Shown here: positions 40 to 21,906 of the stretch, one piece after another | Position numbering within the stretch: position 1 is the first letter of the stretch | How the letters are laid out: each line of letters begins with the position of its first letter | IMG/VR virus record: IMGVR_UViG_3300009503_000082 | Location: 1 to 31,282 of that record | Strand: one strand, 5' to 3' | Length of the DNA stretch: 31,282 bases | Origin: a virus | Program-made: the position numbers and the translations under genes | Notes under the pieces: model-generated | Database searches by the model: none | What the model was told of the DNA's origin: nothing | What the model saw: the letters and a program-made list of their open reading frames with translations, nothing else

Positions 40-1536
40 TTGGATAATATCAATTCTGAAGCTCAAGGGTTTTCTGACGAGAACTCTGCATACGGAATCA
101 CGGTCCCCGCGCTGGCAACCGCCGCCGCGCTCGATGCGTCCGCATTCAGCAGCATCAATGCCAATGACGCGATCCCCACGACCTGGGAAGACAGGGCCCG
201 CAAAGCCTGGGAGTACTACGTCGAGGAGCCGCTCGTCAAGAACTGTGTGAACTCCTGGCGCACCTTCGCCGTGGGAGACGAGATCAAGATCACGAGCGAC
301 GATGACGCCGTGAAGCAAGAAGCCAACGACCTCGCCGCCAGACTCGGCATATCCGAGTTCGTGAAAGACATGATTCTCCAGCTTCTTGTGAAGGGCGACG
401 CGGTCGGGTTCAAGAGATATACGAAGGACGGCAAAGACATCGAGGAAGTCACCTGCGTCAACCCGGTCTCGGTCAAGGTGAAATACGCGCAGGGGCAGCT
501 TGTGGACATCGAGCAGTTTCCGGAGGACACCCCGACCGCAGGCCACGGGCTGAGACTGCCGGTCGAACAGACCCTGCACCTGAAGTGGGATGCTCCTGAG
601 TTTTCGCCGCGCGGCAACTCGCTCGTGCTGCCGGCGTTTCAGTCAATCGAGCTTCTTCGGGACTACCGGCGAGCGGAGCAGGCCATTGCCAAACGCTGGG
701 CCACTCCGTTCAGGCTGCTCAAGGTCGGCGGCGCGTTCGGCCAGAAGATGGTGATGCCCAACCAGAAGATGCTCGAGCAGGTTCGCGACATGGTGAACAA
801 GATGGACCTCAAGAGCGGTCTGGTCGTCCCCTTCTACGTCACGGTCGAAACCCACGGCACCGAAGGGCAGGTTTTCAACGTCGAGGACAAAGTCAAGGAG
901 GTCAAGGAAGACATAGTCGTCGCGCTTGGGCTGTCGCGCTCGCTTGTCGCGGGCGACGGACCCAACTTCGCGACGGCGTCGGTCTCGATGCAGAAGATGC
1001 TCATCATGATCCGCGAGATCAAGCACGCCGCGCGCACTATCCTCGAATGGATATTCGACGACTGGCTCGAGCTTTCAGGATATGCGGGCAAGAGCATCCA
1101 GTTCCTCTTCAACGATCTAGACCCGACGGACGCGGTCGACTTCAAGAAGCTCCTCATCGAGCTATACGACCGTAAGCTCATAAGCCGGTCGTCCCTACAG
1201 CTCAAGATGGACCTCGACCCGGATATCGAAGAAGCGAACCGGCAGAGCGAGGGCAAGTCGGTCGACCTGCTTGATGAAAAGCAAGTAAAGCCCATCGTCG
1301 ATATGGTCGTGGCCGGAATCATGAGCGTCGAGACCGCACAGGAGATGCTCGGTCTCGACCCTGACAAGAACAGACCCGGGGGCGAGTCCCAGGCATCGGC
1401 ATATGCCGGTGAGATCTGCGACTCGTGTGGCTTCTTCGATGCCGAGAAGAACAGGTGCAAAGTTACCCATGCCGAGGTTACATTCGACTCCCAGGCGTGC
1501 AGGCACATCATTCGCAGGGGGTCAATCGGCAGTTGA
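40..1536 (+). CDS. phage portal protein with cysteine-rich C-terminal tail
   Basis: The portal forms the dodecameric ring at the capsid vertex through which DNA enters and leaves. The 498-residue product has the usual portal length and character: an N-terminal helical entry with the motif EEPLVKNCVNSW, a central alpha/beta body, and a long stem/clip region around residues 290-350 rich in VKEVKEDI-type helices. It lies first in a portal, MuF, protease, capsid order, which supports the call. The TTG start at 40 is chosen because a GGGAGGT Shine-Dalgarno site lies at 28-34. The last 40 residues carry C460-x2-C463-x9-C473-x13-C487, which looks like a small zinc-binding knuckle appended to the portal. 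The stop overlaps the next gene's TTG start (TTGA at 1533-1536). Confidence 0.9.
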   Translation: MDNINSEAQGFSDENSAYGITVPALATAAALDASAFSSINANDAIPTTWEDRARKAWEYYVEEPLVKNCVNSWRTFAVGDEIKITSDDDAVKQEANDLAARLGISEFVKDMILQLLVKGDAVGFKRYTKDGKDIEEVTCVNPVSVKVKYAQGQLVDIEQFPEDTPTAGHGLRLPVEQTLHLKWDAPEFSPRGNSLVLPAFQSIELLRDYRRAEQAIAKRWATPFRLLKVGGAFGQKMVMPNQKMLEQVRDMVNKMDLKSGLVVPFYVTVETHGTEGQVFNVEDKVKEVKEDIVVALGLSRSLVAGDGPNFATASVSMQKMLIMIREIKHAARTILEWIFDDWLELSGYAGKSIQFLFNDLDPTDAVDFKKLLIELYDRKLISRSSLQLKMDLDPDIEEANRQSEGKSVDLLDEKQVKPIVDMVVAGIMSVETAQEMLGLDPDKNRPGGESQASAYAGEICDSCGFFDAEKNRCKVTHAEVTFDSQACRHIIRRGSIGS

Positions 1537-4500
1537 ACACCATCCATTCCCCGATGTGCGCTCTGGCCGACGTGTTCCAGGTCCAGAGGATCAGGGCCGC
1601 CACGGACAGAAGCTTGATGGCCCGCGACCTCTACACGGAGCAGGTGGTCTATCAGCTCACGCAGTCGCTCAAGTCGGCTGAAAAACAAGTGCGTTCGGCT
1701 CTTGCTGAATATCGAAGCCTCGGTTCTCTGCCGGACAACAAGCTCGCGGCGCTAAGGGGTCTGGGGAAGCTGGACGCCGAGATCGCCGATGTGATGAATG
1801 CGCTGCGCAGAGACCAGACCCTGATGTTCCGGCAAGCATCTCGGGCGGCGTTTCGCTCCGGCGTGTATCGAGGGATCGAAGAGTTCTCGGCGGCGCAGAT
1901 GCCGTTCTACCGCGATCTCACGCCGGACGGGATCGACAAGCTCACCACATCCGTTTTCACCCTCATCGACACCGATGCGCTGGACTTCATGGCCAATTAC
2001 AACCTAGTGCTTGCCGGGGACGTTCACCGGCAACTCGCGGACGGCATCAAGCGCACAATCCTCGGCGGCATCGCCACGGGCAAGGGCGCGGATGATATAG
2101 CCCGTGACCTCGGATCGGTGATCGAGGACAAGGAGTCCTTCCGGCACGCCGGGTCAAAGGTGTTCACCAAGGCGCAATACCGGATGGAGATGATAGCACG
2201 TACCGAAGTGCTGCGCGCTCACAACCAAGGCCGCATCAAGTTCCATCAGCAGGTCGGCGTGCGGAAGCTCGAATGGATGACGATGGAGGATGAGCGGGTC
2301 TGTCCGGTGTGCGGTCCCCTGGATGGCAAAGTCTTCGACACCGACCGTTTCCCGAACCAGCCCGCTCATCCGAACTGCCGGTGCACGAGCGTCGTGGCAT
2401 GGCCGCTGGTCATCTGCGGCGGGGAGTTGGGCGCGACGGCAGCGCCCGGTCAGAGCGCGTGTATCCTGCCTCCGCAGGCAATACACGACCTGGCAAAGCA
2501 ACAGGCCGAGGAAGAGAAGAAGCTCAAAGAGGCGTTCGAGTCGGGAGAGGTCGCCGATCTGTCGGCACTCACAGTCAAGCAGCTTCAGACACTGGCCAAG
2601 GGAAACGGCATATCGGTCGCGCGAACGAAGAGCGACTTTATCAAGCTCTTGGACCAGGTAGAGCCGGGAGTCAATCACGGCGACCTCTCCGGCGCGGCGC
2701 TGCAGGCGAAGATAAAGCAGTACAACATCGCGGCGCTGCGGAGTAAGGACGACCTCGCAAAGCTGCTCGCATCGAAGCAGGCCGCAATCAAGCAGGCCAA
2801 GGCTCTGGAGGAAGCAGCAAAGAACTTAGCGCCTCAGACGGACCTCTCCGGCCTCACAATGGTCCAACTCAAGGATATGGCCAAGCAGCATGGCGTCTCC
2901 TTGAACCTCACCAAGTCCGAAGTCATCGAGATGCTCGACGTGCTGGAACCGGGGGTGGATCACTCCGGCCTGGCCGGGAAGACCCTGATCGCCGCGAAAG
3001 CGAAACATGGCATTCCGCCGCTCAAGAACAAGGAGCAGCTCGCGAAAGCGCTGGAGAAAGCCGCAGGCAAACAGATGGCGGAACAGGCCAAGCAGCAGGC
3101 TCTTGACGCAGCAAAGGCCGAGGCTTTGAAGAAAGCAGATCAAGCGCTGAAGGAAGCCACATCGCAGATAGTGATGCCGTCATCTTCCTCGCAGTATTCC
3201 TCGTTCCTCGAGTCGGTCAAGGCTGCCGAGGGCGAGCTTGCAAAGGACTCCGGTCTGCCGGCCGCAGTCCTCGAACAGCACGCAAAGGAGGTCGCGCTCA
3301 AGAAGCAGGCATTCCAACAGCAGATTGCGGCGATGAAGTCCGGCGAACTCAAAGATCTGGCGAAACAGACCAAGGTTACGCACTGGCAGTGGGCTTCGAA
3401 AGACGAACTGGTTACTCTCTTCACTGAGACGGACGCCGCAAAGGTATCAGGGGCCCAGGCGAGCATCGAGGCAAAGCATGCCAAGTGGGCGGAGAAGCAC
3501 CTGGGGAAGGCGGGCAAGACAGCGCAGCCGAAGCCTGTGGCCACACCGCCTCAGACCAAGCCACAGGTCGCTACTGAATCGGTCACATCAGCGTCCCCGA
3601 ACACATTCACGAAGAAAGGCTCGGAGTTCGAGGCCGTTGATTCAGCCTGGGCGGAGAAAGGCAAGCCTGAGAAGTTCAAGTATGACGGCAAGGCCAACGT
3701 CGGCGGGGCTCACGAGAAGGAATTCTGGATCGACGAGAATGGCGACAAGTGGCTTTTCAAGCCCGTCGGCAAACGCTCAGACGACTTCGTCGCGTACGGA
3801 GAGGAAGCGGCGTACAAGATCGGCAGGCTTATCGACCCCGACGCCATCGAGGTGCGGACCATTCGCCTGAACGGGCGGACAGGCTCGATACAGAAGTGGC
3901 GGACTGATCTCTCTGTCAGGTACGATTTCTCGGAGATCGAAGTCACCGAGTTGTTCGCCGACGAGGTGGTGCAGATACAGCGTGAGCACGTGCTCGACTG
4001 GCTGATCGCAAACCACGACGGCCACCCCAAGCAGTTCCTCCGGGCGAAGAACACTCACATCTACGGCATCGACAAGGGCCAGCTATTCAAGTTCCTTGGC
4101 TCTGACAAGCTGTCTGTAGACTACCATCCCAATGGAGTCTGCGGCGAACAGGAGCCGTTGTACAACACGCTATTCCGCGCGGTGAAGCAAGGCAAGGTGG
4201 TGGCCGACCCGTCTGTGACTCTGCGCTACATTCGCGAGGTGGAGCGCATATCCGACGATGATTACCTGGCCTTGCTGCGGCCTTATGTCGAGGGCAGGTT
4301 CGGAAGCGACGAGGCTGGAAAGCGAGCATTTTACGAGCTGGCCCAGGCGCGGAAGCACAATCTGCGCCGTGACTTCGAGGAGTTCTACGCCGACGTGCTC
4401 GGCAAGACGGGATTCCGGTTCGAACAAGTTGTCGAGGCTCCAACCAAAGGCCGCATCGGCAAGGCCGAAGAGGAACTGCTCGAAGATGTCCAACGACTGG

Positions 4501-6122
4501 GCTGGCAGGGGAAGGCGCTCCCGATTGACGAGGACAACATAGAGGACCAGAACGCGCTTATCTTCACCGAGACGGCCAAAGGCCAACAGCGCACGGTGAT
4601 CAAGCTCAAGGTCAGACCGGAGGCGGAATCAAAGGTCTTGGCCAAACTCCGCAAGGCGACAAAGCAGGTCACCAAGATCGGTGAACGTCTGCCGGAAGAC
4701 GACTTCGCCGAAGACATTCTCGACGCGGTAAAGACCGTGAACCACCATGCAGGCGACGGCCACTACAACAAAGCGAAGATAGACAAGGCAGTGGGGCATA
4801 TCGAGGCGCTTGAGAGACTGGCGAAGTCCGATGATCCGGACGTCCGCGAGATGGCCGAAACATACAAGGGCTGGTTGGAGAAAGTGCAGCAGGCGGTCCG
4901 CGACCGAAAAGCCATTCCCGAGTACTTCGATACGTACCTCAAGAAGGTCGCCACTAAGCCGAAAAAAACGGAGTCCGACTTCACCTGTCGTAAAACCAAG
5001 GTACTCCTCGAGAAGCGAACCGTCAACAAGGGTGACCTGTCCGTCGAGAGCGAGGCTGTGGACCTCGGCAGTCTGTTTGGCGGACGGCACTTGCCCGAAG
5101 GCGAGCAGTACGAGATAGACTTCGGGGACGGCGTCCGCGCGGTCTACCACCCGTGGTCGTCGAAGAACCTGTATGCGCATTCCGAGGAGTTCGAGATGGT
5201 GTTGCCGGGCCGTCCGGACGCCAAAAGCTTGGACCGGGCGCTGGAGAAGATGGAGAAGATCGGCTTGAAGGCGAACATCGCCACTGCCGAGGACGCGGAG
5301 ATCCTCTATCTCCACAAGCAGGCTTACATAACCCAAGTCGACAAGTCTCCTGAATACACGCAGATGATCTCCGCACTCGACCAGCGCAACGCATCGAAGA
5401 CGGAGCGCATTCAGGCAATGCGCGGGTTTTGGGAGAAGCGGCTCGGAGTGCCGGACATCACGAAGATCCCGGGCTACGATCCCGTCGGAGAGTATCAACT
5501 CGGTTTCAAGGACAAAACGATAGGCGGCGGCTATCGGTATCAATACAGGTTCGATATCTCCGACGAAGACTTGGAACGCGAGATGGCGGGCTACAGCCTC
5601 CATCACAGCTTGACGAATAGCTCCAGCATGAGCGGGTTCCTTGACGCGGCTCTGGAGAACAACGGCACCTTGATAAGCACGGTCGAGAAGCTCAGGGCCG
5701 GGGTGCAGCCGCGCGGCATGTCGCCGGAATCGGATATGAAAACCGGCGGAGCGAGCTACGTGTTCACGAGAATCAAGAAATCACCGCTTTCCGGCGCTTC
5801 CGCCGAAAACGGCCTCTACTTCAAGAAGCGCATGCTAAGGCGGATGGACGCCATAAGCTACGACCACGACGCCTACGGCAAGGTTACCGAAGACTACGTG
5901 CCCACGCACCGGGGAAGCGATCCCAAGACCTGGAAGACCTATGCGCAAAACACAAGCAACGAGACGATCCTCAAGCACTCGATAACGCTGCTGGATAACC
6001 TGGAGGCGATAGTAGTCGGAAGCCAGTCGGAGCGGATGCAAGTGCTGGCGGTATTCAAGAAGCACGGCATATCCAAGCTGACCGACGGTCGCAAGGTCGA
6101 GGATATCGTTTTGGTGAGGTGA
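1533..6122 (+). CDS. giant MuF/SPP1 gp7-type minor head protein with kinase-like and other C-terminal domains
   Basis: The gene encodes 1,529 residues from a TTG start coupled to the portal stop, with an AGGGGG Shine-Dalgarno site at 1516-1521; an ATG at 1554 is the alternative. Residues about 150-290 are a MuF (phage head morphogenesis) domain, with the IARTEVLRAHNQGR helix near 220 and a zinc-like signature VCPVCG (C257, C260) plus HPNCRC (H279, C282, C284). Two SAP/HeH-like repeats follow (about 343-385 and 437-470, each ending EPGV[ND]H). An Ala/Lys/Gln-rich helical linker leads to a PI3/4-kinase- or HipA-like domain at about 700-950: lysine K743 in WLFKPVG, catalytic-loop-like N827-H-D829-G-H831-P-K-Q834, and metal-type D847 in GIDKG. 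The last 550 residues are unassigned, with an ART-like pattern near 1357-1412. Ordinary MuF proteins are far shorter. By family knowledge, MuF proteins are internal virion proteins and some carry toxin domains; an effector role here is inference. Confidence 0.85.
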   Translation: MNTIHSPMCALADVFQVQRIRAATDRSLMARDLYTEQVVYQLTQSLKSAEKQVRSALAEYRSLGSLPDNKLAALRGLGKLDAEIADVMNALRRDQTLMFRQASRAAFRSGVYRGIEEFSAAQMPFYRDLTPDGIDKLTTSVFTLIDTDALDFMANYNLVLAGDVHRQLADGIKRTILGGIATGKGADDIARDLGSVIEDKESFRHAGSKVFTKAQYRMEMIARTEVLRAHNQGRIKFHQQVGVRKLEWMTMEDERVCPVCGPLDGKVFDTDRFPNQPAHPNCRCTSVVAWPLVICGGELGATAAPGQSACILPPQAIHDLAKQQAEEEKKLKEAFESGEVADLSALTVKQLQTLAKGNGISVARTKSDFIKLLDQVEPGVNHGDLSGAALQAKIKQYNIAALRSKDDLAKLLASKQAAIKQAKALEEAAKNLAPQTDLSGLTMVQLKDMAKQHGVSLNLTKSEVIEMLDVLEPGVDHSGLAGKTLIAAKAKHGIPPLKNKEQLAKALEKAAGKQMAEQAKQQALDAAKAEALKKADQALKEATSQIVMPSSSSQYSSFLESVKAAEGELAKDSGLPAAVLEQHAKEVALKKQAFQQQIAAMKSGELKDLAKQTKVTHWQWASKDELVTLFTETDAAKVSGAQASIEAKHAKWAEKHLGKAGKTAQPKPVATPPQTKPQVATESVTSASPNTFTKKGSEFEAVDSAWAEKGKPEKFKYDGKANVGGAHEKEFWIDENGDKWLFKPVGKRSDDFVAYGEEAAYKIGRLIDPDAIEVRTIRLNGRTGSIQKWRTDLSVRYDFSEIEVTELFADEVVQIQREHVLDWLIANHDGHPKQFLRAKNTHIYGIDKGQLFKFLGSDKLSVDYHPNGVCGEQEPLYNTLFRAVKQGKVVADPSVTLRYIREVERISDDDYLALLRPYVEGRFGSDEAGKRAFYELAQARKHNLRRDFEEFYADVLGKTGFRFEQVVEAPTKGRIGKAEEELLEDVQRLGWQGKALPIDEDNIEDQNALIFTETAKGQQRTVIKLKVRPEAESKVLAKLRKATKQVTKIGERLPEDDFAEDILDAVKTVNHHAGDGHYNKAKIDKAVGHIEALERLAKSDDPDVREMAETYKGWLEKVQQAVRDRKAIPEYFDTYLKKVATKPKKTESDFTCRKTKVLLEKRTVNKGDLSVESEAVDLGSLFGGRHLPEGEQYEIDFGDGVRAVYHPWSSKNLYAHSEEFEMVLPGRPDAKSLDRALEKMEKIGLKANIATAEDAEILYLHKQAYITQVDKSPEYTQMISALDQRNASKTERIQAMRGFWEKRLGVPDITKIPGYDPVGEYQLGFKDKTIGGGYRYQYRFDISDEDLEREMAGYSLHHSLTNSSSMSGFLDAALENNGTLISTVEKLRAGVQPRGMSPESDMKTGGASYVFTRIKKSPLSGASAENGLYFKKRMLRRMDAISYDHDAYGKVTEDYVPTHRGSDPKTWKTYAQNTSNETILKHSITLLDNLEAIVVGSQSERMQVLAVFKKHGISKLTDGRKVEDIVLVR

Positions 6123-6595
6123 GTATGAGGGAGTTCATAGCACAGGAAAAGGCAAGGCTGCAGGCCCTGTTCGACGAGTTCAATCGCGATGGATCGTTCA
6201 TCGTGTTGCGAGAAGGTCGCGGTGAGCCGCTGCTGCTTGGGCTTGTCGACAGCTACACCGTTACCCGGGTCGCCCCGCACTTCGATGCGGCCGGCAACGT
6301 CACGAAGACCGACTTCTGGGTCATGTGGAAATCGATCGGCTATGACAACGGCTATCAGTATTCGCATACAATCCAGGTCGTAGACTGGAGCCGGGACGAC
6401 ACCTACGAGCTAGACCTCACCGACGACCTTGGCCGCCGCTATCACATCGAGCTAGTTATGGACGCGACCGAACACGAGTATGTGCTCGACTGGCGCAAGT
6501 GGCTGCGTTACAAGGCCGAGAACGCCGCGGAGTTCGAGATCATCGACGCCCAGCTTCTCGAGGAGCACACGAAAATAGCGGAGTCTTGGGAATGA
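6119..6595 (+). CDS. hypothetical protein downstream of the MuF effector (possible partner or immunity protein)
   Basis: The 158-residue acidic soluble protein has no transmembrane segment or signal peptide, and I do not recognise the family. It has a helical N-terminus (about 1-22), a beta-rich middle that includes VMWKSIGY and YELDLTDDLG, and an acidic helical C-terminus. The GTG start at 6119 overlaps the MuF stop (GTGA). An in-frame ATG at 6125 is equally possible because GAGG at 6116-6119 is well spaced from it. It is translationally coupled to the giant MuF gene and to the next small gene. By analogy with MuF polymorphic toxins, small genes directly after the toxin are often immunity genes, but nothing in this sequence proves that role. 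Confidence 0.6.
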   Translation: MSMREFIAQEKARLQALFDEFNRDGSFIVLREGRGEPLLLGLVDSYTVTRVAPHFDAAGNVTKTDFWVMWKSIGYDNGYQYSHTIQVVDWSRDDTYELDLTDDLGRRYHIELVMDATEHEYVLDWRKWLRYKAENAAEFEIIDAQLLEEHTKIAESWE

Positions 6596-6924
6596 AGCTC
6601 AGATATATGATCGAATACGCGCTGCGCGAGCGCGACACGAACCCGCGCTATGAACCTATCGGTGTCTGGGTGCAAGGTCCCGGCCCGGGACTGGATATCG
6701 TGATGGACTACCTGCCCGGCAATGAGGAGTTTGCCGAAGACGCCGACTGTGTCATCAACCGGCTGGTGGAAAACGGCATCAAGTCCCTGCCTGATGAGTT
6801 TCTGGAGTATCACCGATCCACGATGTCGCCATATCGTGGAATGCGCGGCGAGATCGTCCAGACCGAGAAGTTTGCCACGGCAGAGGAGTGCGCCAAAGAA
6901 GTCTGTAGGGCAATCGCGCACTAA
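6592..6924 (+). CDS. hypothetical small protein
   Basis: The product is 110 residues. The ATG start overlaps the previous stop (ATGA at 6592-6595), so the two genes are probably co-translated. The product is acidic and soluble, with alternating strands and helices (motifs RYEPIGVWVQGPG and GMRGEIVQTEKFATAEE), and no recognised domain, membrane segment or catalytic motif. It ends the first head operon block: a 245-nt gap with a terminator-like hairpin follows. Together with the preceding gene it could be a cargo accessory to the MuF effector protein; this is inference from position. Confidence 0.6.
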   Translation: MKLRYMIEYALRERDTNPRYEPIGVWVQGPGPGLDIVMDYLPGNEEFAEDADCVINRLVENGIKSLPDEFLEYHRSTMSPYRGMRGEIVQTEKFATAEECAKEVCRAIAH

Positions 6925-6976
6925 TCCCGCACTTTTGCCGCACTCGACCACCTCCCACCATATCACCAAGATAGTA

Positions 6977-7002
6977 ACCCACACTTGTTTACATGTGTGG
7001 GT
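6977..7002 (+). terminator. terminator-like hairpin after the MuF block
   Basis: ACCCACAC (6977-6984) pairs perfectly with GTGTGGGT (6995-7002) around a 10-nt loop, and ATTTCTAT follows. The tail is only partly T-rich, so termination may be weak. It lies about 50 nt after the last small gene of the MuF block, where a transcript boundary would make sense. Confidence 0.5.
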
Positions 7003-7010
7003 ATTTCTAT

Positions 7011-7048
7011 CCATTCTGCCTAAGAATGCAAGTGGAAGCCATTCTGCC
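7011..7048. repeat. short direct repeat in the 6925-7169 gap
   Basis: CCATTCTGCC occurs at 7011-7020 and again at 7039-7048, starts 28 nt apart. The 245-nt gap has no convincing gene. It holds the terminator-like hairpin, this direct repeat, copy 1 of the 49-nt repeat and a hairpin before the next gene. The repeat could be a protein-binding site or chance. Confidence 0.35.
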
Positions 7049-7080
7049 AGACCTCTTCTAGGTTGCTCTCCTGCCCCCGA

Positions 7081-7129
7081 AAAGAATCCCGGCACGCCGC
7101 GAGTTTTGCCAGTAAATATCAATTGGAGA
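7081..7129 (+). repeat. 49-nt imperfect repeat, copy 1
   Basis: This copy shares AAAGAATCCCGGCACGC at its left and GCCAGTAAATATCAA at its right with a second copy at 24380-24428, separated in both by a variable core of about 9 nt. Both end in TGGAGA and both lie shortly before a structural gene that resumes after non-structural genes. GGCA and TGCC flank the variable core here and could pair. The function is unknown: a leader or promoter element, a recombination scar, or a remnant coding end. Confidence 0.7.
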
Positions 7130-7150
7130 GGTTCCCTGCCAATGGGAACC
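7130..7150 (+). promoter_or_regulatory. hairpin in the leader of the methyltransferase-protease gene
   Basis: GGTTCCC (7130-7136) and GGGAACC (7144-7150) form a perfect 7-bp stem with a 7-nt loop directly after repeat copy 1. The Shine-Dalgarno GGAG (7160-7163) and ATG (7170) follow within 20 nt, so the hairpin could affect translation or mRNA stability. There is no T-tract, so it does not look like a terminator. Confidence 0.45.
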
Positions 7151-7169
7151 GCACGTGTCGGAGTGATCG

Positions 7170-10100
7170 ATGCAGCTTTTCGCCACGGACGTTGACCGGC
7201 TTGCCTTTCTTCTGGAGACGGACGCGTCGCGCCACCTGGAGCGGCTTCTTGCCCAGGCGGCTGAACTCGTCACCGAGGAACTGCCGGAAGACGAGCGTCC
7301 GAAATACATAACCAACTACATCGGCTCTAAACAGAAGCTGGTTGACTGGATATGGAAGCACACGCCGGAGGGCGTGGAGTCCGTCCTCGACGCATTCTCG
7401 GGTTCGGCCGTCGTGGCCTATATGTATAAGACCAAGGGCCTGCGGGTTCTTGCCAACGACCGGCTGAACTACTGTTATCACGCCGCACGGGCCATCGTCG
7501 AGAACGACAGCGTGCGCATCAGTCAGGAAGAACTCGACGAACTGCTTGCGGATAATCCGAAGGCCGGAACCTTCGTCCGCGACAACTTCAAAGGACTATT
7601 CTTCGCCGACGGCGTCCACAAGGTCATCGACCAGATCCGCGCGAACGCCGACAAGCTGGAGGGCTACAAGAAAGACATCGCGCTCTTCGCTCTCGGCAAG
7701 ACCTGCATGTCCGGCAAGGGCGGCTTCGGGCACTTCTCTTCCTCGACCGACTACGGGAAGCGCCAGGACACTCCCGAGGAGTTCAAGGAGCGCTTCGCGG
7801 ATAACGTCGGGCGTATCAACGCTCTCGTCTTCGACAACGGCAAGGAGTGCAAGGCTTACCGGAAGGACGTCAACGATATGCTTTCCTGGGCGAAGATAGA
7901 CCTCGCCTACTTCGACCCGCCTTACGCGACCGAGTTCTCCACCACCAACTACGAGAAAAGCTATCACTTCGTCGAGGGTCTGATGACCTACTGGGACGGC
8001 CTCACGCTCGTCGAAGACTCGAAGACTCACCACTACGAGACCGAACACAAGACCGTCACCAAGGCCAACGCCAAGGAGTTCTTCTCGACGTTTCTTGCAA
8101 ACGCCAAGCATATCCCGAATTGGCTCATCTCTTACCGCGACCACGCCTACCCGAACGAAGGCGAGATGAAGCAGATCATCTCGGCAAGCGGCATGTCGAG
8201 CCGGATGGAGTCGCAGCAGCATCACTACCACATCTCTTCCCGCCACTCGGAGAACTCCCAAGCCACGGAGCGACTCTTCATCTGCTCGAAAGCGAACGAG
8301 ATGAAGCAGGCCGCAAGCCTCTGCCCGGCGTGCTCTCAGCAGGCAATGGAGACAGAAGCCCTCTGGGATGAGACCGCCAATGAGATCCGCTATCGCGTCC
8401 GCGACCCCGAGGATTTCGAACCCGACAGCTTCAGGCGCAAGGCTCTCGATGGGGTGGACGGCGTCGCCATCATCGTCGGCAAGCTCAAGAAGGAGCACGT
8501 TCCGCAGGGACACGATCCCGAGGTGATGGTCTTGCAGGCTTATCGCTTCGCCAAGAAGACCGACTCCAACCCCGACGGCTGGACACCTGGGAAAGCCAAG
8601 GAGTGGATAAGGCAGCACGAGCCGGAAGCCTCCACGGCCGAGATTCGGACCGAAGAGAACATGCGCGCATTGGCCGACGCGCCGCTTGCGGACGAGATCG
8701 ACCTGCTCTCCTGCCAGGCCGGGCTTGACCTGGTCAAGGTGACCGGCTACATGGGCAACAAGTTCACGATGCTCGGTTGGATCGAGCGGCAGATTCCAAA
8801 GGACGCAAAGACCGCTCTCGACGCATTTTCCGGCGGCGCAAACGTCGCTTACCATTTGAAGCGAAAGGGATTGAAGGTCATCGCAAATGACCTGCTGCTC
8901 TTCCCTTACCACGTTGCCCGAGCCGTCGTCGAGAACTCACACGAGACGCTCTCGGACGAGGATATCGAGAGGATTCTGGCTCCCAATCCCAACGCGGGCA
9001 CGTTCATCGTGGACAACTTCAGCGGCTACTACTACACCAAGCGGGTGCTCTCCTGGCTCGATCAGGTGTGGGCGAACATCCAAAAGCTCTCCGGCTACAA
9101 GAAGGATCTGGCGCTCGCGGCGCTCGGAAACACGGTCAAGGCGAAGAGCCTCTACGGTCAGTTCCATCGCTCGAAGATCAACCTCAAGGCCGATGCAGGC
9201 GGGTTCAAGGAAAGCCAGCTCACCAGCATTCCGATTTCCAGCATGGTGGAGAGCTTCAAGCGTTACGCCAATCAGCTCAACCGGCTTGTCTTCGACAGCG
9301 GCCAAGAATGCAAGGCTTTCCACGGCGACGCGGTAGAGGCGGTGCGGAAGTACGGCGCGGACGTGCTGTATCTCGATCCGCCCTACATCACGGAGTTCTC
9401 GAACAACGACTACGAGTATTCGCTGCACTTCGTCGAGGGCTTGATGAACCGCTGGGCGGACAAGGAGCTTCTCGACGACAACCGGCGCAGCTACAAATCC
9501 CGAACTCACTACGATCGCGAAAGCATCCGCGCGCTCATCGAGAATCTGGCTTCTGAGTCCCGCGGCAAATACAAGACCGTGATCATGTCCTACCGCGACC
9601 ACGCATTCCCGACGGAGAAAGAGATCCGCGACATCTTCGCGGAGCGGTTCGGCCAGGTTCGGGTGAAGAGCATGGATGTCGAGTACGGCATCGTGCTCGG
9701 CAAGGGAGGTGAGGGCAAGAACGGACGTGAGCTTCTATTTATAGCGTCCAATTCCAGGCAGGCTCCCAGGTCAATCGCTTCGGCCGGTGTCTCAAACTGC
9801 CACACAGCTATCCCCGTGGAAGTGAGTCTGAACAACAAGGACGGACTCTCGGCCGAGGCGATTGACCTCAACCCCAACGCCGGCGACCCGCAGTTCGGCT
9901 TCATCATGTGTCGAGCGGGCACGAACCGCAACGGCGACCACTTCACCCCGGACGAGCTCGCCGCGCGCTACACCACGGCCATCAACAAGAAGATAGACCT
10001 CAAGCATTCCCAGGAACTCACGGACATCGTCGGCGGCATAGTCGCGGCCGACTTCGTGGAAGACGAGACGGGCGGGCGCGTCGAGTGCGTAGGCGAGCTA

Positions 10101-11024
10101 TATGCGGCGGAAGCCCCAGCCGCCGCGCTCGCCTACAAGCTCATGAAGAAGGGCATCATCTCCCAAGTCTCGATGGAGTGTGACTACGAGACAGGGGAGT
10201 GCTCGATTTGCGGCAAGACGGTAAGCAACAAGAACGACTACTGCCTGCATCTTCGGAAGTTCAAGGGCGCGGAGTATCAGGGCAAGCCGGTGTTCGAAAT
10301 CCTTCACGGCGTCACATTCACCGGCCTCGGCCTCCTCGATAGGAAGGGAGCCGACGACAACGCACGGATAACCCAGGTCGCCTCGGACAAGACGGGGCGG
10401 GCAGAATATACAACCTCAGGAGGCAACTCATTGGAAGATGTGAAGAACGAACACGAGACCGACGAGCAGCGCGAGGAAGCTGCAAAGAAGAAAGATTCTC
10501 CGGGCGGCGGAGGCGCTCCCCCGGTCGACGACAAGGCCCGGATAAAGGAGCTTGAGGCGGAGAACAAAGACCTCAAGAACCAGGTGCTTGAGCTTCAGAA
10601 GCGCGTGGACGAGCTCGAGGCGGAAAGCAAGGCGGCCGCGAACAAGGCGCGCGCGCAGAAGCTGATGCGGAAGTTGGAGAAGGCGGGGATGTCCTTTGCC
10701 TCTGACGAGGACAAGGAGCAGGAACTGACGCGGCTCGCCGGTCTTTCCGACGACGCGTTCGCGGCGACCGAAGCCGCTTACGACAGGGCGATCCAGGCCA
10801 AATCGGAATGCCCGAACACCGGCAAGCAGGACGCTGACAAGGGCACGGGCTGCGAGGCGAAGTCCGCATCCGCTTCGACGGACCGACAGATGCGTTCGAA
10901 TGCGGACGTGCGGCCCGCAGACGTCGACGACAAGAAGCTTTCCCTCGAGGACAAGCTTCGAGACGGATTCATGATTGCCTACCGTGAGCGAGTCGGTCTC
11001 GTCGGCGCGGGCAAGAGCAACTAA
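7170..11024 (+). CDS. fusion of two D12-class adenine DNA methyltransferase modules, prohead protease and scaffold
   Basis: One uninterrupted frame of 1,284 residues. Module 1 (about 45-375) has a Dam-like YIGSKQKL start, SAM motif LDAFSGS (73-79) and DPPY (249-252). A linker with CPAC and a phage-type domain (RVRDPEDF, about 395-490) follows. Module 2 (about 525-860) repeats the pattern: YMGNK, LDAFSGG (550-556) and DPPY (736-739). Residues about 905-1090 match capsid-maturation proteases, with probable catalytic His946 (DLKHSQE) and Ser1001 (SQVSME), plus an inserted zinc-like C1011-x2-C1014-x10-C1025-x-H1027. Residues about 1120-1175 form a strong coiled coil, as in scaffolds fused to proteases. 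The start has GGAG at 7160-7163. No internal start with a good ribosome site is evident, so a true fusion is favoured. The protease would trim scaffold and perhaps release the methyltransferases; this last point is inference. Confidence 0.85.
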   Translation: MQLFATDVDRLAFLLETDASRHLERLLAQAAELVTEELPEDERPKYITNYIGSKQKLVDWIWKHTPEGVESVLDAFSGSAVVAYMYKTKGLRVLANDRLNYCYHAARAIVENDSVRISQEELDELLADNPKAGTFVRDNFKGLFFADGVHKVIDQIRANADKLEGYKKDIALFALGKTCMSGKGGFGHFSSSTDYGKRQDTPEEFKERFADNVGRINALVFDNGKECKAYRKDVNDMLSWAKIDLAYFDPPYATEFSTTNYEKSYHFVEGLMTYWDGLTLVEDSKTHHYETEHKTVTKANAKEFFSTFLANAKHIPNWLISYRDHAYPNEGEMKQIISASGMSSRMESQQHHYHISSRHSENSQATERLFICSKANEMKQAASLCPACSQQAMETEALWDETANEIRYRVRDPEDFEPDSFRRKALDGVDGVAIIVGKLKKEHVPQGHDPEVMVLQAYRFAKKTDSNPDGWTPGKAKEWIRQHEPEASTAEIRTEENMRALADAPLADEIDLLSCQAGLDLVKVTGYMGNKFTMLGWIERQIPKDAKTALDAFSGGANVAYHLKRKGLKVIANDLLLFPYHVARAVVENSHETLSDEDIERILAPNPNAGTFIVDNFSGYYYTKRVLSWLDQVWANIQKLSGYKKDLALAALGNTVKAKSLYGQFHRSKINLKADAGGFKESQLTSIPISSMVESFKRYANQLNRLVFDSGQECKAFHGDAVEAVRKYGADVLYLDPPYITEFSNNDYEYSLHFVEGLMNRWADKELLDDNRRSYKSRTHYDRESIRALIENLASESRGKYKTVIMSYRDHAFPTEKEIRDIFAERFGQVRVKSMDVEYGIVLGKGGEGKNGRELLFIASNSRQAPRSIASAGVSNCHTAIPVEVSLNNKDGLSAEAIDLNPNAGDPQFGFIMCRAGTNRNGDHFTPDELAARYTTAINKKIDLKHSQELTDIVGGIVAADFVEDETGGRVECVGELYAAEAPAAALAYKLMKKGIISQVSMECDYETGECSICGKTVSNKNDYCLHLRKFKGAEYQGKPVFEILHGVTFTGLGLLDRKGADDNARITQVASDKTGRAEYTTSGGNSLEDVKNEHETDEQREEAAKKKDSPGGGGAPPVDDKARIKELEAENKDLKNQVLELQKRVDELEAESKAAANKARAQKLMRKLEKAGMSFASDEDKEQELTRLAGLSDDAFAATEAAYDRAIQAKSECPNTGKQDADKGTGCEAKSASASTDRQMRSNADVRPADVDDKKLSLEDKLRDGFMIAYRERVGLVGAGKSN

Positions 11025-11035
11025 GGAGGCACAAC

Positions 11036-11398
11036 GTGGCATTTCTGAACCCCAATCATCGAGGACTGGCCTACGGCGACGGATACTTGCAGGGCGCTGG
11101 ATCGTGCGGCCAGTTCGTAAAGTTGGTCGGCAACGACCTCTTCGCCGTGAACACCGACTCGACCGCCAAGAGCTTCGGGATCCTCATCAAGGACTACAAG
11201 GCAGGCGAGATGCCCGGCGTCTTCTGCATGGGCGGCGTCTACGAGACCGACGTCTACGAGGGCACGATCAACGCTGGCGACGATCTCAAGGTCTCGGCAA
11301 ACGGCAAGCTCACTGCGGGTGTGGCGGAAGGTGACGAGGTCGTCGCCAGGGCCATTTCGGTATCGAGCGGAACGCTCAAGTTCCGCCTGCTCATCTAG
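11036..11398 (+). CDS. head decoration (capsid cement) protein
   Basis: The 120-residue beta-rich protein lies between the protease-scaffold and the major capsid protein, the standard place for a decoration protein that stabilises the expanded capsid. Glycine-containing strands such as VFCMGGVYETDVYEG and a C-terminal VVARAISVSSGTLKF strand resemble small beta-tulip or lambda gpD-like cement proteins. The GTG start is set by AAGGAGG about 7 nt upstream. The family call rests on size, composition and position rather than a diagnostic motif. Confidence 0.75.
   Translation: MAFLNPNHRGLAYGDGYLQGAGSCGQFVKLVGNDLFAVNTDSTAKSFGILIKDYKAGEMPGVFCMGGVYETDVYEGTINAGDDLKVSANGKLTAGVAEGDEVVARAISVSSGTLKFRLLI
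11367..11386 (+). promoter_or_regulatory. hairpin at the decoration/major capsid junction
   Basis: GCGGAAC (11367-11373) and GTTCCGC (11380-11386) form a perfect 7-bp stem with a 6-nt loop inside the last codons of the decoration gene. There is no T-tract, so it may be an mRNA stability or processing element upstream of the highly expressed capsid gene, or chance within coding sequence. Confidence 0.3.
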
Positions 11399-11412: not shown

Positions 11413-12276
11413 TTGGAAGCAACCCAGCTCAACATTCACAGCCAGGAATACATGGAGACCATGGCGCGCCTGATGACCGAGGCTCTTGAATCTCCAGATG
11501 GAATGCGCGCGCTCGCCGCGGCAATAGCCGAGCCAATCGAGCAGGAGATCAAGCGGAAGGAGATAAGCTCGCTTCTTCTAACGCAGCACACGCTGCCGAA
11601 AGGCGAGCGCCCGATCTACCAGAAGAAGCCGAAGGTCAAGGCTTACTGGATCAGCACCGAGGGCGAGGCCCGCGAGCAGGAACTCGGCCAAGATGAAGTC
11701 GAGTTTCCCACCAACAGGATTCACTCGACGCCGATGGTAGACGTATCGATGCTCAAGAACGGCAACATCGGCACCCTGATGGACATCCAGACCTCGGCTG
11801 CCGACGAGATACGCAAGGAAATCGACAAGAGAACGCTCACCGTCCTTTCGGCCTCAGTCCCCGCCGCGAACACGATCGAAGTCACGGGCGGCAAGCTCAC
11901 GGACGACGCATTGAACGAAGCAATCTCCATCATCGAAGACCTGGAGCTCTCGGTCAAGTACATCGTGATGCGTGGACGCCGGTTCAACGATATGCGCGAC
12001 TGGGATCTCGATCCAGAGACTCGATCCGAACTCAGGACCAAGGGCGTCATCAAGAACTACGGCACCGGCGGCATCCTGCTTACGGCTTCCGCCAGCATGA
12101 CCGAGATTCTTCTAGTGCCCGATGATGAGGTCGGCAAGATGCCGATCCGCGAGTCACTCAAGACCGAAGCCATCGAGCAGAAGACTCGGTTCAAAACCGG
12201 CTGGCTCGTATGGACCGAGCTTGGCCAGGGCGTCACCCGGCCCGAGATTCTCGCGAAGATCAGGATACTGCCGTAA
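11413..12276 (+). CDS. major capsid protein (probable HK97 fold)
   Basis: The 287-residue product follows the protease-scaffold and decoration genes, the expected place for the capsid shell protein. An N-terminal helical arm (about 10-55) precedes a beta strand region with KGERPIYQKKPKV, consistent with the E-loop of an HK97-type capsid. Later IIEDLELSVKYIVMRGRRFNDM and a C-terminal FKTGWLVWTELGQGV strand resemble the A-domain and terminal strand of such proteins. The TTG start is supported by GGGAGGG at 11402-11408. It is on the short side for the family, and the sequence alone cannot show whether the protease trims it. Confidence 0.8.
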   Translation: MEATQLNIHSQEYMETMARLMTEALESPDGMRALAAAIAEPIEQEIKRKEISSLLLTQHTLPKGERPIYQKKPKVKAYWISTEGEAREQELGQDEVEFPTNRIHSTPMVDVSMLKNGNIGTLMDIQTSAADEIRKEIDKRTLTVLSASVPAANTIEVTGGKLTDDALNEAISIIEDLELSVKYIVMRGRRFNDMRDWDLDPETRSELRTKGVIKNYGTGGILLTASASMTEILLVPDDEVGKMPIRESLKTEAIEQKTRFKTGWLVWTELGQGVTRPEILAKIRILP

Positions 12277-14792: not shown

Positions 14793-16640
14793 ATGCCATC
14801 ATATCTATCGCCTGGAGTCTACACACGGGAAACGGACTTCAGCTTCTACATCAAGCAGATCTCCACATCCGCCTGCGGGATGATCGGGATAGCGGAGAAA
14901 GGCCCTATCAACAAGCCGACGCTTGTCACAAGCTGGGAGCAGTTCGTCCGCAAGTTTGGCTCGTACATCCCTGACGGCTATCTCGCATATGCGGCGCGGG
15001 CGTTCTTCGACAACGGCGGACAGGTGCTCTACGTTAACCGCGTGGAGCATTATGACTGGCCGACGGACCCTGACAGCATAATGGCCATTAAGGCAGTCAC
15101 CACATTGATGGACCGGGAGGGCGTCGCCGCGTCACTTACGACCGGAACGACCGGGACAAACCGAATCACCTGGCGGGCAAAGAACATAGGATCGCTCGGC
15201 AACAATATCCAGGTTGCGGTCATCAAGAGCGGGAACAACACTCCTCTCTCGGTAAGCGTCAGCGGGCAGACCATCACGGTCAATCTGGCTACCGACGCAT
15301 CCGGCAACGCGACCAGCACGTGTTCACAGGTAGTAACAGCAGTGAACAACAACGCATCCGCATCCACGCTGATCCAGGCCACGCACATCGACTACGGCAT
15401 AGTCGGTCCATTCGCCGCCACGCCACTGACCGGCGGACAGAACGCGCGTCCGTCAGTCAACGTCTTCGCTCTCTCCGAAGGTGCGTGGGGAAATAGCCTG
15501 AAAATAGAGATCACTGACAGCACGGTCGATCCGGCCAACCTTTTCAATCTCACCGTTCGACATAAAGACGAAGTAGTGGAGTCGTTCAGAGACCTCTCGA
15601 TGGACGTTACACACCCATCCTACGTTGAGACGGCCATAAATGAGCGGTCAGAGTATATCACCGTCGAGGACTGCGAGATGCCGACAACCCCGGCGCTCCG
15701 TCGCCCATTAGTTGGCGGCTTTGCCATGAGCTATGGCGAGGATGGGACGGACAATATGCAGGACGAGGACTACATCGGCGACCAGGCGGCACGCACCGGT
15801 CTCTACGCTTTCGATGGTAATGAGAGTCTCAATCTCCTGCTTGTGCCAGGTGTGACCAGCGCGACGGTCATACACGCCGGAATCGCGTATGCCGAGAGTC
15901 GCAGAGACATTCTTTTCATTGCGGAAGCGCCCTTGTTCGTCAACCCGCTCGAAGCGGTAGACTTCCGCAAGGGCAAGGGAATGTTTTCCCACGCGGCGTT
16001 CAACTCCTCTTACGCGGCCTTGTATTATCCGTGGATCGAGATATCCGATCCGCTCACGGGCAAAAAGAAGCTCGTTCCGCCAACAGGGGCTGTCGCGGGC
16101 TGCATCGCCAGAAGCGACGAGAAAGCCGAGGTCTGGTGTGCGCCCGCCGGTATCGACCGAGGTCGGGTGTTCAATGCCTTGTCCCTGGCCTACAAGACCA
16201 GCCGGGGCGAGCGGGACGTGCTTTACCCGGAAGGAATCAACGTCATCGCTTCGTTCCCGGACACCGGCATCAACATCTGGGGACAGAGGATGCTGCAGAG
16301 TCAACCGTCCGCAACGGACCGCATCAACGTTCGCAGGCTGATGATGTACATCGAAGAGGCGATTTCGCAGTCGTCGCGCTTTGTGGTCTTCGAGCCGAAC
16401 AACCGAGAGACCTGGCGGGCGCTAGTGCGGCTTATCACGCCGTTCCTGCAGAACATCAAGAGCAAGGGCGGGTTCTATGACTTCCGCGTGCAGTGCAACG
16501 AGGAGTCGAACCCTCCGGCAGTGATCGACCGGAATGAAATGGTATGCCGCGTGTTCGTGAAGCCGACGAAGACCGCCGAGTTCGTTGAACTCAACTTCAT
16601 CCTGACCGCGACCGGCGCGAGCTTCAGAGAGATACTGTAG
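14793..16640 (+). CDS. contractile tail sheath protein
   Basis: The 615-residue product begins with the diagnostic sheath N-terminus YLSPGVYTRE and continues with GMIGIAEKGP and a conserved C-terminal half that includes EAISQSSRFVVFEPNN and the region around WRALVRLITPFLQ. The sheath polymer surrounds the tube and contracts to drive it into the host envelope. Residues about 115-214 form a Thr/Ser/Asn-rich inserted domain (SVSVSGQTITVNLATDASGN) of the type seen in other phage tail proteins, probably a surface-exposed lobe. GGAGGT lies just upstream of the ATG. Confidence 0.95.
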   Translation: MPSYLSPGVYTRETDFSFYIKQISTSACGMIGIAEKGPINKPTLVTSWEQFVRKFGSYIPDGYLAYAARAFFDNGGQVLYVNRVEHYDWPTDPDSIMAIKAVTTLMDREGVAASLTTGTTGTNRITWRAKNIGSLGNNIQVAVIKSGNNTPLSVSVSGQTITVNLATDASGNATSTCSQVVTAVNNNASASTLIQATHIDYGIVGPFAATPLTGGQNARPSVNVFALSEGAWGNSLKIEITDSTVDPANLFNLTVRHKDEVVESFRDLSMDVTHPSYVETAINERSEYITVEDCEMPTTPALRRPLVGGFAMSYGEDGTDNMQDEDYIGDQAARTGLYAFDGNESLNLLLVPGVTSATVIHAGIAYAESRRDILFIAEAPLFVNPLEAVDFRKGKGMFSHAAFNSSYAALYYPWIEISDPLTGKKKLVPPTGAVAGCIARSDEKAEVWCAPAGIDRGRVFNALSLAYKTSRGERDVLYPEGINVIASFPDTGINIWGQRMLQSQPSATDRINVRRLMMYIEEAISQSSRFVVFEPNNRETWRALVRLITPFLQNIKSKGGFYDFRVQCNEESNPPAVIDRNEMVCRVFVKPTKTAEFVELNFILTATGASFREIL

Positions 16641-16652
16641 GAGGTCTGTACG

Positions 16653-17111
16653 ATGGAAGTGACAATGCCCCAGAGCCTCTACCAGAACTGGCAATTCGCC
16701 ATCGAGATAAACGGCTTCGACGTGGCGCTCTTCAAGAAAGGGCAGGAGCCGAAGACCGAGTTCGAAGAGGTTGCCTTCGCTCCGGCCGGCTCGATGTTCG
16801 ACCAGAAGGTCGCAGGCCGCATTAAGTTCGAGGACATCACGCTCGAAAAGGGCGTGCTCGCTGATGGGTCGGATGAGTCCGCTCGCGACTGGGTGCGCAT
16901 CCAGGCCGACGTGAACTACGGAGTCGGCGCGTTGCCGGAGGAGTATATGCGCGATATCGACATCGTGCGTTACGACCGGGCGGGAAACGAGACCCGCCGT
17001 TGGACGCTTCACGGCGCGTGGGTTAAGGCCCTGGAATACGACGAGCTCGAGGGCGGCAGTTCAGACAACACCATCGAGAAGATCACGATCTGCTACAACT
17101 ACTGGGACTGA
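16653..17111 (+). CDS. tail tube protein (T4 gp19-like)
   Basis: The 152-residue product follows the sheath and starts at an ATG with AGGAGGT at 16639-16645. The N-terminal FAIEINGFDVALFKK strand and C-terminal WTLHGAWVKALEYDELEGGS are characteristic of T4-like tube proteins (phage_T4_gp19 family), in which the end forms the ring-to-ring interface. These subunits stack as hexamers to make the inner tube that contracts through the sheath. Gene order sheath then tube confirms the call. Confidence 0.93.
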   Translation: MEVTMPQSLYQNWQFAIEINGFDVALFKKGQEPKTEFEEVAFAPAGSMFDQKVAGRIKFEDITLEKGVLADGSDESARDWVRIQADVNYGVGALPEEYMRDIDIVRYDRAGNETRRWTLHGAWVKALEYDELEGGSSDNTIEKITICYNYWD

Positions 17112-17117
17112 CGGAGG

Positions 17118-17801
17118 ATGGACTTGTATACATTTATATTACCGACCGGCAGTGAGATAGAACTTAGAGAGATGACCGGAGCAGAGGAGGAACTGCTCAC
17201 TAATCATCGGCTTATTCGCAACGGTGACGCGGTGAACCAGGTTCTCGCCAACTGCATCCTGCGGGTCGGCGACAAGGATGATGTGACGAGCAAAGATGTC
17301 CTCGATATGCTCTCCGGCGACAGGCTCTTCACCCTGGTGAAGCTTCGCCAGATATCGCTCGGAGACGAGGTAGAGCTTGAGCTTGTCTGTCCGAACACGG
17401 CCTGCCGTGCCAAGAACAAGGTAACGATCAACCTCGACGATTTACCGGTCACACCCTATGGCGCGGAGCGAGAGTTCATATTCACGCTTCCCGCTTCGGG
17501 ATCCAAAGTGCGGTTTGTCTATCTCGACGGTCACAAGGAGAAGCGGCTTGCGCAAATGCAGGAGCCGTCAATCTCCGCTGCAATGCTGATCCGCATCCTG
17601 GATATCGACGGCAGCGCGCCATCCAAGAAGGCTCTTAACGAGATGTCCATGCGGGACCGCAATGCGCTCCGGCAGGAGATGCTGCGCGTTGACGCTGGCA
17701 TCGACACTGCCGTCGAACTCGACTGCGATTCCTGCGGAACGCGTATTCGCACTAGACTTGAGGCCGAGCCCTCTTTTTTATTCCCCGGAGTTCGGTTGTA
17801 A
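17118..17801 (+). CDS. T4 gp26-like baseplate/tail assembly protein, frame-0 product
   Basis: The 227-residue product resembles the T4 base-plate protein family of contractile systems: an N-terminal TGSEIELREMTGAEEELL segment, a central LFTLVKLRQISLGDEVEL segment, and two cysteine pairs (C91-x4-C96 and C203-x2-C206) that could bind zinc. It lies between tube and tape measure, the place of tail assembly chaperones. The Shine-Dalgarno GGAGG (17113-17117) abuts the ATG, so the in-frame TTG at 17124, six bases away, may be the true start. Near its 3' end lies the slippery heptamer TTTTTTA, from which ribosomes can shift -1 into the next frame to give a 277-residue product. Confidence 0.85.
   Translation: MDLYTFILPTGSEIELREMTGAEEELLTNHRLIRNGDAVNQVLANCILRVGDKDDVTSKDVLDMLSGDRLFTLVKLRQISLGDEVELELVCPNTACRAKNKVTINLDDLPVTPYGAEREFIFTLPASGSKVRFVYLDGHKEKRLAQMQEPSISAAMLIRILDIDGSAPSKKALNEMSMRDRNALRQEMLRVDAGIDTAVELDCDSCGTRIRTRLEAEPSFLFPGVRL
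17774..17780 (+). promoter_or_regulatory. -1 ribosomal frameshift site (T TTT TTA)
   Basis: In frame 0 the codons are TCT TTT TTA, giving an ideal X-XXY-YYZ slippery heptamer. A -1 slip leads into an open frame of 56 codons that ends at 17950 and has no ATG, GTG or TTG of its own. Programmed frameshifts between tube and tape-measure genes are well known in tailed phages. Confidence 0.85.
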
Positions 17802-17950
17802 GGGACGCGTTCTTCCTCGCCTACGGCGGACTGCACTGGGAATACGCGGAGGTCGCAAGACTACCGCTCCGCACCCGGGAACAGTTTGTCCAGGCGCTGG
17901 AGAACCAGCTTGACTATGAGAAACAGGAACTGGAGCGAAGCAAGCGATGA
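17780..17950 (+). CDS. -1 frameshift extension (DUF6760-like tail)
   Basis: The 56 codons read from ATT at 17780 to TGA at 17948-17950 and encode FFLAYGGLHWEYAEVARLPL and a helical end. This resembles the short DUF6760-like proteins that follow the gp26-like gene in contractile tail operons. The frame is closed upstream by TGA at 17759-17761 and contains no canonical start, so it is most simply made as the C-terminal 56 residues of a 277-residue frameshift product. The stop overlaps the tape-measure ATG (17947). Confidence 0.8.
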   Translation: MPRSSVVRDAFFLAYGGLHWEYAEVARLPLRTREQFVQALENQLDYEKQELERSKR

Positions 17951-21575: not shown

Positions 21576-21906
21576 GACAAAAAGGGTTTTCATCTGCAGC
21601 AGATACATTGGGGACATAGAGCACAACGTCGAGGTTGCACTTTCTCTCTGCCGGATGGCCATCGACGCGGGCTGTGCTCCGTTCGCTCCTCACCTTCTCT
21701 ACACAAGGTTTCTCGATGAGAACGATCCAGCGCAGCGCGAGCTTGGCATCTCGCTTGGACTGCGGTTCATGGAAGCCTGCGAAGAAGTCTGGGTTTACGC
21801 CGCTGAGGGCATATCGGATGGCATGCATCGGGAAGTGGAGCATGCCAAAGCTCTCGGCAAGCCGGTTATTGAACTCCGGGAGGTCCGGCCTTGCGCGCTG
21901 ACCTGA
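21562..21906 (+). CDS. DUF4406-like (nucleoside 2-deoxyribosyltransferase-like) protein
   Basis: The 114-residue product has the pattern of the DUF4406/DUF7768 family, related to nucleoside deoxyribosyltransferases: an N-terminal strand VFICSRYIGDIEHNVE, a middle APHLLYTRFLDENDP segment, and a C-terminal EEVWVYAAEGISDGMHREVE followed by HAKALGKPV. These proteins probably bind nucleotides, and the phage role is not established. The ATG at 21562 lies 14 nt inside the tape measure gene. It is an enzyme-like protein in the middle of structural genes, so it is likely a small cargo gene. Confidence 0.75.
   Translation: MRRPKTKRVFICSRYIGDIEHNVEVALSLCRMAIDAGCAPFAPHLLYTRFLDENDPAQRELGISLGLRFMEACEEVWVYAAEGISDGMHREVEHAKALGKPVIELREVRPCALT

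Follow-up and report, generated by a model that had tools for sequence, protein, structure and literature searches.

Why should a phage join two DNA methyltransferases to its prohead protease and scaffold in a single polypeptide? This question is raised by a gene on a viral DNA of 31,282 nucleotides (IMG/VR record IMGVR_UViG_3300009503_000082, positions 1 to 31,282), the whole of which is called the window here. Our analysis suggests that it is the obligate protease-scaffold gene of a myovirus, carrying N-terminal tandem methyltransferase (MTase) domains that would be packaged by means of the scaffold, kept in the head and act against restriction, a reading to which we give a probability of roughly 0.55.

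The fusion gene, whose parts are listed in Table 1, begins with ATG, and its translation runs through 1284 codons with zero internal stops. IMG/VR contigs and isolate genomes, complete chromosomes among them, preserve this uninterrupted frame, which the original prediction had read from the letters alone. All five segments of the fusion have ratios of nonsynonymous to synonymous substitution (dN/dS) of 0.05-0.18. The Pfam model MethyltransfD12 (PF02086) matches two stretches (E = 2.3e-43, 149.2 bits against a curated cut-off of 22), which carry S-adenosylmethionine (SAM) motifs and DPPY catalytic motifs at residues 249-252 and 736-739, exactly where two D12-type modules had been predicted. These domains, here MTase1 and MTase2, belong to the D12 class of N6-adenine MTases and would be expected to catalyze adenine methylation; essentially all of 38 aligned homologues have their motifs X, I and IV unimpaired (for MTase2, wherever it is present). 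A predicted structure of MTase1 plus linker was of low confidence (predicted local distance difference test, pLDDT, of 63) and gave only the general MTase fold, and nothing for the linker domain. Between the two MTases lies an unnamed domain of about 85 residues, one of three features absent from the original prediction, the others being the Cys/His insert after the catalytic serine and the nested scaffold start at 10431. It has no match in Pfam, PHROG or phage records, and its pattern RYRVRDPxxFxxxSFRxK...VLQAYRFxKKT...GWTxxKAKEWI is seen in the window (8376-8624) and in the loci L190 and L125. The domain is missing from some relatives, is present twice in L190, and outside intact fusions was met only in truncated or broken copies.

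The protease domain has 35% identity to gp19 of phage G over residues 878-1075 (E = 3e-14). Its AlphaFold model is confident (pLDDT mostly >90), and the top five Foldseek matches of this model in the PDB are all herpesvirus proteases, or assemblins (probability 0.80-1.00, best E = 2.6e-3); the viral structure library BFVD returned phage G gp19 at 1.9e-19 and many named prohead proteases at E of about 5e-11. His946 and Ser1001, named by the original prediction as the likely catalytic residues, lie at precisely these positions and do not vary across 43 aligned relatives and phage G gp19; a conserved His and Ser are expected of assemblin-like (S78-like) prohead proteases, whose fold the model predicts for this domain. 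The VSMEC motif around the serine also served to gather the open reading frames (ORFs) of one alignment, A4. The Cys and His residues of the insert that follows (Table 1) are invariant in the relatives, phage G gp19 included, and may bind zinc.

The C-terminal tail is predicted to form a coiled coil, in line with the scaffold originally proposed there, and has the conserved C-terminal pattern VRPxDVDDxxxSLEDxLxxGFMxAYxxRV. At the junction of protease and scaffold the window reads AGGAGG-N7-TTG, with the TTG at 10431, and the Gly-Gly just before this nested start is the Shine-Dalgarno (SD) sequence translated in frame. When in-frame starts with an SD sequence were scanned for under a strict rule (SD of at least 5 nt), such a pair was found at the junction in 37 of 43 genes, about one being expected from the rate elsewhere; this corresponds to 11.6 against 0.36 sites per 1000 codons (16 sites in 44,073 other codons), a 32-fold enrichment. 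The predicted nested product has 197 amino acids in the window and 178-208 in relatives. These data argue for a separate scaffold made from a nested start, as in nested protease/scaffold genes of the Mu type, to which C/Nu3 of phage lambda also belongs. Weaker pairs of SD and start were seen before MTase2 in 13 and before the protease in 10 of the 43 homologues, none of these starts being comparably conserved, and in the window no start with an SD of at least 4 nt precedes either domain; therefore, the protease must be made on one chain with the MTases. The original prediction had held that a strong internal start would speak against the fusion. Such a start exists and is conserved, but it yields extra scaffold and leaves the MTases joined to the protease.

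The same domain order, which the original prediction had proposed to look for in related phages, was found between MuF and cement/major-capsid genes in more than 50 loci from several host phyla; 38 homologous loci came from IMG/VR and 27 from the GTDB genome set. Among the bacterial carriers are metagenome-assembled genomes (MAGs) of Armatimonadota and numerous isolates of Thermodesulfobacteriota, together with Ectothiorhodospira shaposhnikovii (Pseudomonadota) and Sulfidibacter corallicola (Acidobacteriota); Desulfobulbus rhabdoformis is another cultured carrier. The fusion lies on complete chromosomes in Desulfosarcina widdelii, D. alkanivorans and S. corallicola. The hosts named for MAGs could reflect faulty binning; those of isolates are safe. 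Scans with the protease only, which kept the best 80 loci each and may miss more distant MTase-free relatives in IMG/VR, gave 158 complete frames, or 42 after removal of near copies. None of the 42 is without an MTase, and the MTases always precede protease and scaffold: both are present in 28 and one in 14 (11 with MTase1, three with MTase2). Among the last, L190 is an intact frame without MTase1, and the other two, L124 and L137, appear to be missing their front part. In 11 longer phage contigs (46-133 kb), which are fragments, the sole D12 MTase and the sole protease matching the profile are those of the fusion, and the Pfam S78 model, below its cut-off, matches only there. As far as can be seen from these contigs, the fusion appears to be obligate. 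Truncated or broken copies occur in L066, L122, L124, L132 and L137; in L066 and L132 the fusion is apparently frameshifted, and these may be decaying prophages.

In a tree of MTases, all MTase2 domains fall into one clade (support 100/99), whose sister group consists of all the MTase1 domains (94/95), with the free-standing enzymes apart. The pair is therefore old; L144 and L146, labelled single in this tree, are actually double-MTase forms. MTase2 was lost afterwards more than once, in several lineages, and MTase1 almost never. The nearest free-standing MTases found have about 29-32% identity and adjoin restriction enzymes of the AlwI and DpnII types, a neighbourhood that speaks for the proposed role against restriction. 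The protease occurs without MTases in phage G, in the Rhodococcus phages Finch and E3, in Gordonia phage Stormageddon and in a Bixzunavirus. Therefore, the fusion is probably derived, and most likely arose in the lineage to which the window phage belongs.

Based on this layout, we hypothesize that the gene gives two products: free scaffold, made in abundance from the nested start, and the full-length fusion, made in fewer copies. Because the fusion shares its C-terminus with the scaffold, it would enter the procapsid by co-assembly, bringing in both protease and MTases, and this placement would be a natural consequence of the scaffold tail and the nested start. At maturation, the assemblin-like protease would digest the scaffold and very probably cut itself from the MTases, which would stay in the head as internal proteins. 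They would then most likely leave the head with the ejected DNA and methylate it as it enters the cell, giving anti-restriction; possibly they also methylate progeny DNA before packaging. The steps after translation (product ratio, encapsidation, cleavage, ejection and anti-restriction role) are what we infer. A further proposal, which we hold tentatively and at slightly less than even odds, is that the scaffold works as an enzyme-loading device, in which the strengths of the two starts set the ratio of products, self-cleavage frees the methylases, and these enter the next cell and methylate before restriction acts. The N-terminal position would in this case offer a cargo slot of general use for enzymes delivered by the head. 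The interpretation of the original prediction is partly supported: the evidence for an unbroken fusion is strong, and a place for the enzymes inside the procapsid, where the protease could free them or leave them in the virion, would follow from the proposed assembly.

Other explanations have to be weighed. The MTases could act only in the producing cell, being made late, methylating progeny DNA around packaging and then being destroyed or left outside, with no delivery. Head proteases usually break down scaffold-attached material, no retention signal was found in the fusion, the gene lies in the late head module, and methylated progeny DNA alone would be protected in the next host. Nevertheless, we consider this explanation less likely than delivery: late timing could be had from a separate gene of the operon with no fusion at all, the fusion has persisted through deep divergence with the MTases always in the N-terminal position, and known packaged anti-restriction proteins favour delivery. 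It is improbable that the main task of the MTase domains is to bind DNA or the portal, as a platform in the procapsid that might, for instance, organise packaging, and that catalysis is secondary or absent. Although the fusion appears obligate and MTase1, unlike the repeatedly lost MTase2, is almost always kept, as could be expected of a structural part, binding alone would not need the SAM-binding and DPPY catalytic motifs that essentially all copies keep. The units could also be made from internal starts, with MTases and protease rarely on one chain in vivo, as the strong scaffold start and the weaker pairs further upstream might suggest; only the scaffold start is conserved, which makes this very improbable. 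To an artefact of assembly or frameshift joining separate genes we give almost no credence, and we rejected it, together with the sequencing error hiding a stop that the original prediction had feared: interrupted versions do exist, as listed above, but unbroken copies of the fusion occur in isolate genomes, some of them complete chromosomes, and in dozens of metagenome assemblies made independently.

Returning to packaging by the scaffold and action against restriction, several points weigh against it. Counts of palindromes and of GATC and AATT show no clear avoidance, and since, in addition, the closest MTases come from different systems, no recognition site is assignable. Since the long contigs are fragments, another MTase or protease of this kind may be encoded beyond their ends. 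The E-values to solved proteases are modest, so that it is the concordance of fold, residues and position that carries the claim on the fold; likewise, matches to Pfam Peptidase_S78 are sub-threshold only (best E = 4.9e-5, in 8 of the 11 contigs), for which reason the protease is filed by fold and residues and not as Pfam S78. As to a cleavage site between MTase2 and protease, the motif search gave a weak lead: of four linker sets, those following MTase1, preceding the protease and from the scaffold tail show a roughly 2-3 fold enrichment of KA[DSNE], and the set after the protease is depleted of it. Since the sequences are related, this enrichment is phylogenetically confounded.

Table 1. Features of the fusion gene and of the adjoining head genes in the window
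Feature	Position	Strand	Basis or remark
Full fusion gene, 1284 aa	7170..11024	+	MTase1 - unnamed domain - MTase2 - prohead protease - scaffold
D12-class adenine MTase domain 1, residues 46-377	7305..8300	+	Pfam PF02086; NYIGSK, DAFSGS, DPPY 249-252
Unnamed domain of ~85 aa, about residues 403-485	8376..8624	+	Between MTases; without Pfam/PHROG match
D12-class adenine MTase domain 2, residues 525-868	8742..9773	+	Pfam, motifs, MTase tree; GYMGNK, DAFSGG, DPPY 736-739
Predicted prohead (assemblin-fold) serine protease domain, residues 878-1075	9801..10394	+	Phage G gp19 match, AlphaFold2 model, Foldseek, BFVD
Codon of likely catalytic His946	10005..10007	+	Invariant in alignments A1, A2, A4
Codon of likely catalytic Ser1001 (VSMEC)	10170..10172	+	Invariant in alignments A1, A2, A4
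Putative zinc site C1004, C1011, C1014, C1025, H1027	10179..10250	+	Insert after catalytic Ser
Internal Shine-Dalgarno AGGAGG (encodes Gly-Gly)	10418..10423	+	Conserved at protease/scaffold junction
Nested scaffold reading frame, TTG start, 197 aa	10431..11024	+	Coiled coil and conserved C-terminus
Portal protein (start codon uncertain)	40..1536	+	phrog_2739 E=1e-63
Giant MuF head protein, 1565 aa (start uncertain)	1425..6122	+	SAP/Rho_N-like repeats, HipA-kinase-like segment, C-terminus of unknown kind
Cement/decoration protein	11036..11398	+	phrog_673 E=4e-10, Phage_cement_2 E=0.0025; conserved neighbour
Major capsid protein	11413..12276	+	phrog_2522 E=2e-85; phage G gp27 30.5% identity

The genes around the fusion in the window encode portal, giant MuF, cement, major capsid, neck, sheath, tube and tape measure proteins, and the module is therefore a myovirus late module. 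The order portal-MuF-(small ORF)-fusion-cement-major capsid-neck-sheath-tube is kept in relatives. The HipA_C segment of the MuF protein was matched at E = 0.0002-0.002 in four relatives and at 0.017 in the window; the giant MuF is thus a second head protein of this module fused to a likely enzyme. From the small ORF (6119-6595) to the fusion there is a gap that varies from 0.5 to 3.6 kb and is an apparent defence hotspot, in which several relatives (L009, L010, L040 and L042) carry AbiEi/AbiEii toxin-antitoxin genes (Pfam E down to 9e-42) and other accessory ORFs are also found. In L064, from a Desulfobacterium assembly, the gap (3906-10000) holds apparent host genes, FeoB-like and putative porin-like by eye, through a rearrangement or an assembly join. 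In L044, about 5 kb of extra genes (15120-20521), including a Crp-like regulator identified by eye, lie between major capsid and neck. Further downstream in the window, tape-measure-like sequence extends over two overlapping ORFs (17947-19959 and 19938-21575), and an ORF of the tail region (21256-21906, plus strand) matches phage nucleoside 2-deoxyribosyltransferases (phrog_355, E = 1.7e-23).

The fusion couples DNA modification to head assembly through an essential gene present in a single copy, such that synthesis of the head protease also yields methylases. If these are packaged, the gene would represent a natural system that loads active enzymes into capsids by scaffold fusion, with release by a built-in protease, and a simple model for the protection of phage DNA at the moment of entry. 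There is also a consequence for annotation. Residues 524-1276 match phrog_27806, a family of 798 residues labelled only 'DNA methyltransferase', and these phages therefore seem to be without a head protease; judged from its length and match, this family is a one-MTase form of the same fusion, and its annotation is corrected here to cover the head protease-scaffold. The lineage is a large family of uncharacterised tailed phages with one or two MTases ahead of the protease-scaffold.

A search of the literature outside subscription journals found no description of an MTase pair on a protease-scaffold gene with a nested start. The specific architecture (D12 pair, protease-scaffold and nested start, in a wide lineage) is thus apparently undescribed in the searched papers, while the concept of polyvalent virion proteins is already known from Iyer et al. 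2017 (PMC5512222), who listed adenine MTases and assemblin-like peptidases, the latter always C-terminal, as domains of such proteins and proposed processing during virion assembly and injection. Like those proteins, the fusion unites many unrelated activities, enzymatic and structural, on one chain encoded in a virion gene cluster, here the late head cluster; unlike it, their MTases are mostly EcoKI/TaqI-like enzymes of the gamma class (NPPY) fused to SNF2 helicases, whereas the window has D12 domains (DPPY) and no helicase domain by Pfam and PHROGs. In phage Mu, a protease is likewise followed by a scaffold with its own in-frame start inside the protease gene (PMC4378225), but no enzymatic domains lie N-terminal to the protease, where the window has about 870 residues of MTase sequence. 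Phage G gp19, Finch gp17, E3 gp77 and Stormageddon gp13 are homologous proteases in the same stretch of the head cluster and have no MTase domains; in phage G, moreover, the protease gp19 and a possible scaffold, gp21, are separate genes, and the match of the window scaffold to gp21 (E of 0.06 and 0.011) is only suggestive. The AlwI/DpnII-type D12 MTases, the closest free-standing relatives found of both domains, are paired with a restriction enzyme, none of which is fused in the window gene. As for the proposed role, phage P1 packages and ejects Dar proteins, including DarB with its adenine MTase domain (PMC5512222, PMC12810830), and DarA is cut by the head protease (PMC12810830); the statement of the original prediction that modification enzymes are normally separate early genes was therefore too strong. 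DarB resembles the role proposed for the fusion in being an anti-restriction protein with an MTase domain that is carried in the head and ejected with the DNA. However, in P1 the MTase and the protease are separate genes and DarB is a gamma-class MTase-helicase, whereas in the window the MTases lie within the protease-scaffold chain itself.

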